Positions 28,565 to 31,723 of a stretch of 64,000 nucleotides of DNA are shown in pieces; position 1 is the stretch's first letter, and every line of letters starts with the position of its first letter. Below the pieces are notes generated by a model. That model did not search any database and was not told where the DNA came from. It saw nothing but the letters and a program-made list of their open reading frames with translations. Location of the stretch: assembly GCA_030272155.1 (NCBI GenBank), contig CP126200.1, positions 4,154,001-4,218,000 on the forward strand, in the 5' to 3' direction. This stretch comes from Tetradesmus obliquus (lineage: Eukaryota; Chlorophyta; Chlorophyceae; Sphaeropleales; Scenedesmaceae). Both the position numbers and the translations under genes were made by a program.

Positions 28565-29636
28565 TTAGTCGCCCTTCCAGTCAGCCTCGAAGTATCCCAC
28601 GTCCTCACGATACACCTGCACAGCAGCACACGACAGCAGGTCACAGTTTGGCTATTGATTGGTGAACTGCATGATTGAAACGATCATCAAGCAGAAGCTG
28701 CATCAGCACCAGCAGCCAAACACACAGGGCTACAAAGCCATCGCGTCACTGGCTGCTCCCAGAAGTTAGCCTGCTTGCATGTTGCCAATTTGCATTGCAG
28801 CTGCATTGTTGCAGCTTGCTCGCACACACCGCCGCACTGCCACACAGCCTCTAATCCTAGTTAGACACACCACCTTCCGGCGCCAGCTTACGTCCACTGC
28901 ATACATGCACAACGTGAAGCCTCTGTCTACAGCCACACTCACCCTGTACGGGTCCTGCCTGTCGCTGCGCGCCACCTGCACCTCAGGCAATGCCTCGCCA
29001 AGGAACGTCGGGAACGGCAGCTGCGCTGCTTGGCGCTCAGCCCACTTCCAACGGAATGCATCACGCACGTATACAAAGCTGCCCTGCGGGCCGGGCACCT
29101 GCCCGCGCACAAACAGCAGGTTGCGCGTGGGGTCGACCTGCGCAGCGACAGCGGCAGCAGCAGCAGCGAAGGTCGCACGCCCGCTTTGTACATCGAGCTG
29201 TTCTCAAGGGTCACGCGCTCACCTTGTGCACCCAGATGTTATTTGAGGTCACGTGCTCACCTTGTAGATCAGATGTTTTCAGAGTCGCGCGCCCGCCTGG
29301 TACATTAACCGTCTTGAACGTTAAAGGTTCGCGCCGGCTTTGTGCATCCAGCTGTTCTCAAGGGCCACACGCTCACCTTGTACACTCATATTGATTTGAA
29401 GGTCACGCAATCACCTTGTGCACCCACATGTTTCTGGCCACACGCTCACCGTGCACACCCAGATGTTTTGAAAGGTCACGCAATCACCTTGTACACCCAC
29501 AAGTAACTAGTCACAAGCTCACCTTGTACACCCAGATGTTTTTGAAGGTCACGCGCTCGCAGCCCAGGTGGCCCGGCATCTTCTTGCCTTTCCACACCTT
29601 GCCAGGGTCAGTCCTGCCTCCAATGGAGCCCGGAGC

Positions 29637-29668
<32 letters not shown>

Positions 29669-31723
29669 TGTCACCGGCAGCATTTGGCGCAGCTGACAAG
29701 AAGTACATTGCTATGCAGCACCAAGGCACAGCACTGTATCCGCACCAGCAGCCTTAGCATGGGACTCCACATGGGACGCCTAGGGTGAACACAAGCAACG
29801 GCAGCAGCAGGCGACGCCAAAAGGCAGCAGTGCCGCGCGCGCCGTTGGCACCAAGAACTGTCATAGCCTCCTGCCCCGCGCAGCGCAAGGCCGCAGCGCA
29901 GCAGACAGACCTACAGGCAGGCAGGCAGGCAGGCATACAGCCGCAGTAGTAGCAGAGACACAGACGCCCAAACAATGCGCGTTAGGTTGCCCCTGCCGCC
30001 CTTGCATGAATGCCGCGCGCACAGTCGGGTCCACCCAGCGTACGGCCCTGCCTTGTACTGCGTAACTGCACAGTCGGCACCTACCTGTGGTGCTTTGTGT
30101 TGCCGTGTGTCGCATTCTGTCCGGCAAAGTTCCAGCGCTTCATTACTCCAGCAAAGCCCTTGCCCTTGGTGACGCCAGAAATGTCGAGGTACTGCCCTGC
30201 CTTGAAATGCGCAGCGCCGATCACTGTGCCCGCAGGCAGCAGCGCATCCTCAGTCACCTGCACACCAATCCAAACAGCAAACAACGCCAGTCAGCAGCTG
30301 ACTGCCCAGATCCTGTAAGCTTCGTAGCGTACACAGCGAGTGCCGCAGCCTTGGTCTAGGCGATGCCCCAGCAAGGAAAGGCCTGCAACCTCCACCTGCA
30401 GCACTGCTGATGCATGCTGGCCGGCCGGCGTGTACGCGCGCTGCGGCGCAGACACAAATGCACTGTACCATCATGACACGATACAAACAACAACAATCTT
30501 AATGCAGGCGCGCACTGCCTGTAGCGCTGCCCACTTGCAGGCCGTTCACCTTGCACTCCCAGAGCTTGCGCTTGGGTGTCACACCCGCCGCAGCGTATTC
30601 GCCTAACTGGCGCGGGTGCAGCTGCTTGGGCCGCTTCGCGCTGCAGCCCAGCACCAGAGCGGTCACGCCGTCGCGCTGCTGGTGCTTGTGGCGCACCACC
30701 TGGCAGCAGCAGCAGCAGCAGCAGCAGCGGCGGCGGCGGCAGTAGCAGCAGCGGCAGCAGTACATGAGTGACGCGGCACAGGCATTGTGCAATGGTGCTG
30801 CGCACCAGGTGCTGGCGTTACTCAGGAAGCTGGGTCGGCCGTAACTGTGGCAGCCGTGCAAGCGTGGGGAATGCACACCAGGAGCTATACACTGCGTGCT
30901 GGCACACTGCAAGAGTGCTACCGGCACTCTTGAGGTGCTAGCAGCCGTCAACAGATGTATGCTGCATCAGCTGGCCAGTACAGCTGCAGCACTCTGCTGC
31001 ATACACACACGCGCACAAACAAGACACAATTGAGCTGCCCCCTGTATACAGCCGATCAATTGCTGCCACAGCACACTGCATTCACCATGCCTTAAACTGC
31101 GATTACCATGCCTGGCACTGTCATTCCACACTGCAGCTCACCGTGCACTCGTCGATCCACAGCACCGTCAGCGGCACGCGCGCCCCGTATTCATCCCAGT
31201 CCTGCATCATGCCTGCCTTGAATGCGATCACGCCTGCGCGCCGCGACTCAAACTGCATGGGCCGCTCCTCTAGTGGCGGCGGCGCAGGCCGAACTGCATC
31301 ATTGATACGTGACTGTGCTATGAGCTCGGCTATCTCAGGAGGAAGCGTGGGGTTGTCTATTGAGCGCGTGGCACGCCAGCTGAAGTGCCTGCAAGGCTGC
31401 AGTTGGTGGTGCTGGTGGTGCTGCTGCCACATTGGAGGTGACAGCTGGCCCTGCTGCTGCCGCTGCTGCTGTTGTATTTGCTGCTGCCAGGGCTGCGCTG
31501 ATGCCTGCTCCTGCGCACTGCAGCAGCTGCTGCTGCTGCTGCTGCTGAAGTGGCTGCATTGATGTTGTCGTGGTGGTTCACTACTGCTGCTTGCATCCTT
31601 CTGTTGCTGGCCTGCATCCTGCAACACCCATGGACACTGCGCTGTTGCCTGGACTGAGGCACTAGCCCTGCCTACTAGTGAGCTCAGCGAGCTCAAGCAG
31701 CGCTTGCTGCTGCTAAGAAGCAT
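28565..31723 (-). CDS. organellar 50S ribosomal protein uL3, probably mitochondrial
   Basis: Bacterial-type ribosomal protein L3, a large-subunit protein reaching the peptidyl-transferase region. Six exons: 31723-31142, 30699-30550, 30257-30085, 29637-29523, 29137-28943 and 28615-28565, 421 residues, all phases consistent. Signature segments: [17 protein letters not shown] (N-terminal barrel), KPKQ-like [37 protein letters not shown] (the Gln matches the PrmB-methylated Gln150 of E. coli L3), [34 protein letters not shown]. About 115 extra N-terminal residues, starting [19 protein letters not shown] and containing [11 protein letters not shown], suggest an organellar leader with a Gln-rich insert; HFS suggests mitochondria over plastid (inference). 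The C-terminal extension ends ADWKGD. Exons 2 and 4 follow CTG-rich acceptors. Intron 4 is a tandem array. Confidence 0.92.
29170..29522 (-). repeat. array of ~9 decayed copies of the uL3 exon 4 end filling intron 4
   Basis: The true junction (29517-29555) reads, on the + strand, CTCACCTTGTACACCCAGATG then TTTTTGAAGGTCACGCGCTC. Recognisable copies follow leftwards at about 29483-29516, 29443-29482, 29411-29442, 29372-29410, 29336-29371, 29291-29335 (poor), 29255-29290, 29217-29254 and 29175-29216. The unit is about 36-40 bp and most copies keep CACC, the GGTG of the donor. The intron is 385 bp, so the array is nearly all of it. Confidence 0.85.
29914..29935 (+). repeat. (CAGG)5 tetranucleotide repeat
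   Basis: Five perfect CAGG units in intron 3 of the uL3 gene. It appears to be a simple-sequence repeat only. Confidence 0.8.

Follow-up and report, generated by a model that had tools for sequence, protein, structure and literature searches.

An intron of the Tetradesmus obliquus uL3m gene, very probably lengthened by a minisatellite grown out of its own 5′ splice junction

Minisatellites whose repeat unit spans an exon-intron boundary have been described in amphioxus, where these "mirage" minisatellites occur in Adh3, in the globin genes BflGb6 and BflGb9, and in PGBD5 (PMC3087553; PMC3902484). According to the accessible parts of these accounts, many of the units carry splice signals, splicing is normal, and the Adh3 units measure 10–72 bp. 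Tandem copies of exon segments with AGGT beside an intron were reported for ATP2A1 and a potato RdRp gene, where the available text presents the intron as new (PMC4974935). Introns made of tandem repeats of 24 nt that reach into the exon were found in the fission yeast genes SPOG_01682 and SOCG_00815, and were reported as gained in the portions of the two accounts accessible here, with the splicing of SPOG_01682 left unresolved (PMC3629103; PMC4974935). In green algae, tandem repeats were found to be more frequent near the intron-exon junctions of Chlamydomonas reinhardtii and Volvox carteri introns, in an account whose accessible part is without units spanning the junction or their origin (PMC3887541), and a search of open-licence PMC papers found no account of arrays that span the junction in any green alga.

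The array described here occupies intron 4 of the uL3m gene of T. obliquus, within a 64,000-nucleotide stretch of DNA (the window; contig CP126200.1, positions 4,154,001 to 4,218,000). By analogy, the amphioxus mirages appear to be its closest known kind: it is a tandem array of short units, the unit crosses the exon-intron boundary, and the outermost copy (E) is the real one. It differs in its host, a green alga rather than a cephalochordate, in filling nearly the whole intron, and in being older and more decayed (58–90% identity, versus 81–100% in the available description of BflGb6). It shares the tandem exon-segment copies of ATP2A1 and potato RdRp and the repeat reaching into the exon of the fission yeast cases; however, the introns there are new or reported as gained, whereas intron 4 of uL3m was not gained, and relatives that lack detectable repeats have an intron at its position. 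The array belongs to a known kind and extends it to a new group; its mechanism is ordinary.

The uL3m gene lies on the minus strand, and its six coding exons join into an open 975-nt frame of 324 aa (Table 1). The top matches of the protein bear PF00297, several among them being named mitochondrial large-subunit protein uL3m, and the best named relative is that of Monoraphidium minutum (66%). The relative P0001 extends further at the N-terminus, and the true start may lie upstream of 31432. A Pfam search with two single exons matched neither (0/2), because the exons are too short. Contig 5 of the genome bears a second L3 gene. CTG runs were observed directly 5′ of the acceptors of intron 3 (29641-29668) and intron 1 (30703-30760), and likewise of intron 4; those of introns 3 and 1 may stand in for the pyrimidine tract.

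Table 1. Features of the uL3m gene, of the array in its intron 4, and of other arrays in the genome. Positions refer to the window unless a locus name precedes them; identities are to copy E.
Feature	Position	Strand	Remarks
uL3m gene, six coding exons	28565..31432	minus	joined 975-nt reading frame
Exon 1	31432-31142	minus	joined frame
Exon 2	30699-30550	minus	joined frame
Exon 3	30257-30085	minus	joined frame
Exon 4	29637-29523	minus	joined frame
Exon 5	29137-28943	minus	joined frame
Exon 6	28615-28565	minus	joined frame
Intron 4, 385 bp, GTGAGC...GCGCAG, phase 0	29522-29138	minus	joined frame; K|V join seen spliced in P0001
Exon copy E, last 36 nt of exon 4 and donor GT	29521..29558	minus	reference for identities
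Copy 1, 35 bp	29486..29520	minus	74%; adjoins donor
Copy 2, 38 bp	29448..29485	minus	84%
Copy 3, 35 bp	29413..29447	minus	79%
Copy 4, 38 bp	29375..29412	minus	82%
Copy 5, 38 bp	29337..29374	minus	71%
Copy 6, 42 bp	29295..29336	minus	58%; most decayed
Copy 7, 36 bp	29259..29294	minus	77%
Copy 8, 38 bp	29221..29258	minus	90%; best
Copy 9, 38 bp	29183..29220	minus	76%; reading recurs in P0129
Partial copy 10, 15 nt	29168..29182	minus	runs into CTG-rich stretch
CTG-rich 3′ end of intron 4 and acceptor	29138..29167	minus	outside repeat
Array in DUF92 gene, random sample	L022:5798-6157		unit = 20-25 nt exon + 15 nt true intron
Array behind RecX-like exon end, ~100-bp units	L018:6493-7039		donor GTGCG
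Array of 86-bp units	L016:1572-1978	minus	last copy runs into open frame
Long array, 42-bp unit with AGGTGAG	G000:C3:1276511-1277315		19 overlapping rows

A unit of 35–42 bp, made up of the final 36 nt of exon 4 and its donor GT, recurs in intron 4 as nine full copies and a partial one; together they span about 355 of the 385 bases. An earlier, sequence-only reading had described about nine decayed copies of 36–40 bp. Tandem Repeats Finder agrees with the array given in Table 1 (29209-29558, 9.3 copies of period 38, score 161; 29363-29554, period 73, score 270; 29178-29459, period 154, score 329). The similarity also stands far above that of shuffled sequence, as the earlier reading required: the 38-nt exon/donor segment scored 54 against intron 4, compared to a mean of 15.1 and a maximum of 26 in 1000 dinucleotide shuffles. 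Copies 1 and 3 are 80%, copies 2 and 4 82%, and copies 5 and 9 89% identical, and the pairs 1+2 and 3+4 resemble a double unit of 73 bp that was itself duplicated. The proposed gradient, in which copy quality declines with distance from the donor, was not recovered; identity to E showed no trend with position along the intron (Spearman rho −0.02, p 0.97, n = 9), and the best copy is copy 8. Nor was the array caught before its copies eroded, as had been supposed, since these are 58–90% like the exon, whereas other arrays in the genome are nearly perfect.

The explanation that we regard as very probable is that a pre-existing spliceosomal intron of uL3m was lengthened by a minisatellite grown out of its own 5′ splice junction. 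The donor GTGAGC shares GAGC with a site 38 nt away in exon 4, and this short identity would have led to tandem duplication of the intervening segment by replication slippage or microhomology-mediated repair, a step not provable in the decayed array because the donor consensus itself supplies GAG. Further rounds, some with double units, would have raised the number to about ten copies. The spliceosome would have stayed with the upstream-most donor, so that all downstream sequence would be removed as intron and drift, while copy E would be held by coding selection; the array itself is presumably neutral. This account builds on direct observation of the array, of its unit boundaries, of the same position being occupied in relatives, and of splicing from the first donor in a relative that is nearly identical. 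Support also comes from elsewhere in the genome, where the same plan, with microhomology of 3–9 bp, was found in six young arrays.

Use of the first donor was seen in P0001, a 386-aa protein that is 97% identical over 98%, carries the unit only once, lies on a 1677-nt contig, and has K joined directly to V. The contig is cDNA-sized; a gene that covers at least 2868 bp would not fit into 1677 nt, and the K-V join implies that the array, if present there, is removed from the first donor. Normal splicing despite repeated splice signals, a property of the mirages, is thus observed in this 97%-identical relative, and its predicted protein indicates that only the first, exonic donor is used there.

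Creation of the intron was the other half of the earlier proposal, which had allowed for either creation or expansion by tandem duplication of the exon junction; expansion is supported, whereas creation is not, given relatives that have an intron at the same position without a detectable repeat. Under Rogers' model, an AGGT-bearing segment of an ancestral ...AAG GTC GAC... exon would have been duplicated to yield both donor and acceptor, with the array growing later. The exon junction AAG|GTC does put AGGT at the right place, the array starts right at the donor and stops 30 nt short of the acceptor, and the fission yeast introns of 24-nt repeats are on record, as far as the accessible text goes (PMC3629103). 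The age of the position was assessed through predicted proteins of relatives, from metagenomic and other assemblies, which often read through introns. An in-frame V...Q insert, the shape expected of GTG...CAG introns read through in frame, was found exactly between K and V in three of 120 aligned uL3 proteins (P0006, P0069, and P0078); P0019 (Haematococcus) has another insert at this junction, and P0004 lacks the stretch after it. The 115 proteins without an insert are uninformative, because spliced models or prokaryotic proteins must lack it. All seven exon-4 matches continue beyond K into differing sequence that begins with V, and in 11 of 12 exon-5 matches V is preceded by foreign sequence with Q at its end, the twelfth, P0003, being a spliced protein.

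No junction repeat was detected in the nine relatives with a long enough intron read-through, in a degenerate comparison with 200 shuffles each: between 18 and 160 of the 200 shuffles reached the score, the lowest count (18/200) being that of P0126 and P0134, compared to 1/200 for the positive control, uL3m of T. obliquus. Repeats in the parts of these introns beyond the read-through are possible. As judged from these proteins of chlorophyte relatives, the phase-0 position is common to Sphaeropleales-like and Chlamydomonadales-like proteins (a grouping inferred from named matches) and older than the array, unless introns were inserted in parallel at one proto-splice site, a formal possibility. 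Whether the position is unique to the lineage had been raised as a check, and an old, widely shared position free of repeats had been named beforehand as the outcome that speaks against the proposal. P0126, one of the seven exon-4 matches, is labelled Pelagomonas calceolata, and its exon-4 part equals that of Dunaliella salina P0021; it is probably a contaminant.

Further observations bear on creation. The acceptor lies in CTG-rich sequence, outside the array copies and beyond partial copy 10, such that donor and acceptor do not both derive from unit copies; a fully eroded last copy is possible. The same array plan also occurs with genuine intron as part of the unit, L022 being an example. Creation of intron 4 by duplication is thus largely refuted, and we consider it very unlikely. 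P0129, on an unspliced, independent contig with an exon 5 that is 99% identical to that of T. obliquus, has before exon 5 a stretch ending in Q that reads as T. obliquus copies 9 and 10 do, and the array is therefore older than the split from the P0129 lineage. In P0128, from another species, part of exon 5 recurs in frame and in decayed form upstream of the real exon 5, a duplication at the opposite end of the same intron.

The repeated donors might instead be functional, with clustered 5′ splice sites, decoy or alternative, adjusting uL3m expression via unproductive splicing. GTGAG or GTGAT, preceded by AAG or ACG, forms the end of six intron copies, and each would give an early stop, splicing from later donors leading to a stop at codon 246 in all six tested. 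However, GT has been lost from three of the nine copies, and the donor columns are not conserved in excess of the rest of the unit (7.4 versus 6.9 of 9, p 0.29), as drift predicts; a role of this kind seems improbable. An assembly artefact, to which tandem repeats in general are prone, is more improbable still, given that the copies diverge from one another by 10–50% and that P0129, from an independent contig, reads like copies 9 and 10 beside exon 5. A mobile intron element (introner), a class that creates introns in diverse eukaryotes according to the accessible part of one account (PMC9860276), or a transposon-derived repeat resembling the exon by chance, can practically be dismissed, because the unit is uL3m's own coding sequence, the 561-bp array region matched only itself, rather than sequence in many genes, in a lower-bound search of the genome (104,662,953 bases, 17 contigs), and the other arrays in the genome are each built from their own exon.

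The uL3m array does not stand alone; look-alike arrays were read in further T. obliquus genes. A scan for AGGTGAG repeats returned 620 places (391+229), versus 11+15 for the reversed pattern. This contrast was rejected as proof of enrichment, because the two heptamers are not equally common: AGGTGAG is ~4.5 times commoner than GAGTGGA (86 versus 19 in 264 kb), and chance pairs alone are expected to yield about 146–172 of the 620. The 100 of the 620 that were listed (up to contig 3) comprised 48 places, 15 of them with overlapping rows; one is a GGTGA microsatellite, and six (L029-L034) were picked from the remaining 14 for their coding-looking units.

Eight arrays besides that of uL3m (L018, L022, and L029-L034) follow the same plan, three of them with Pfam-supported exons. 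The six targeted arrays are nearly perfect and combine the exon end of another gene with a GTGAG donor; the upstream-most copy reads as the exon end and is followed by copies each with a donor, and in L032 it is a decayed copy of the exon end directly upstream. The exons matched the ceramidase C-terminal domain (L031, joined across the array), PP-binding (L032), and DUF92 (L022, from the random sample, joined across the array), whereas the RecX match of L018 fell slightly under the Pfam cut-off. The exons of L029, L030, L033, and L034 were assigned by reading frame, the Pfam scan having covered L029, L033, and L034 among these. Residual identity at the unit ends of the six targeted arrays amounts to 4, 4, 9, 3, 4, and 6 bp, a measure for which L022, L018, and uL3m are too compound. 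The unit of L022 contains true intron, implying that this array arose at an existing junction.

In a random sample of 200 kb (L009-L028), a score of at least 300 was reached by three arrays, and all three are at junctions, in what is a very small sample: L018 and L022 are at 5′ junctions, and L016, without Pfam support, probably spans a 3′ splice junction. Two further arrays have scores of at least 200 and look like repeats of coding sequence kept in frame. In a frequency-matched control, the sample held nine tandem AGGTGAG pairs, some within the same array, compared to a control mean of 1.9, and 22 of 950 control heptamers reached nine; for clusters of three or more, 162/950 reached the one observed. 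With the window added, which was chosen for the uL3m array, the counts were 2/1006 (pairs) and 26/1006 (clusters). At this level of control, the enrichment of AGGTGAG is suggestive.

We tentatively raise the possibility, on balance doubtful at present, that tandem duplication mediated by microhomology has a genome-wide hotspot at the splice junctions of T. obliquus, especially at 5′ junctions. Many introns would then gain length at their ends as their own exons are copied into them, and would be continually refreshed from coding sequence, and duplication introns that look newborn would usually be old and padded. The hotspot is a lead, short of a result.

AGGT-bearing exon copies that fill an intron look like proof of intron birth, yet the uL3m intron is older than its array, and the position in relatives needs to be checked before such introns are counted as gains. 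The uL3m array is useful both as a warning and as a pointer to a possibly widespread process. If the pattern of junction arrays proves general, this alga would be a system in which the growth of introns from splice junctions can be watched and tested.
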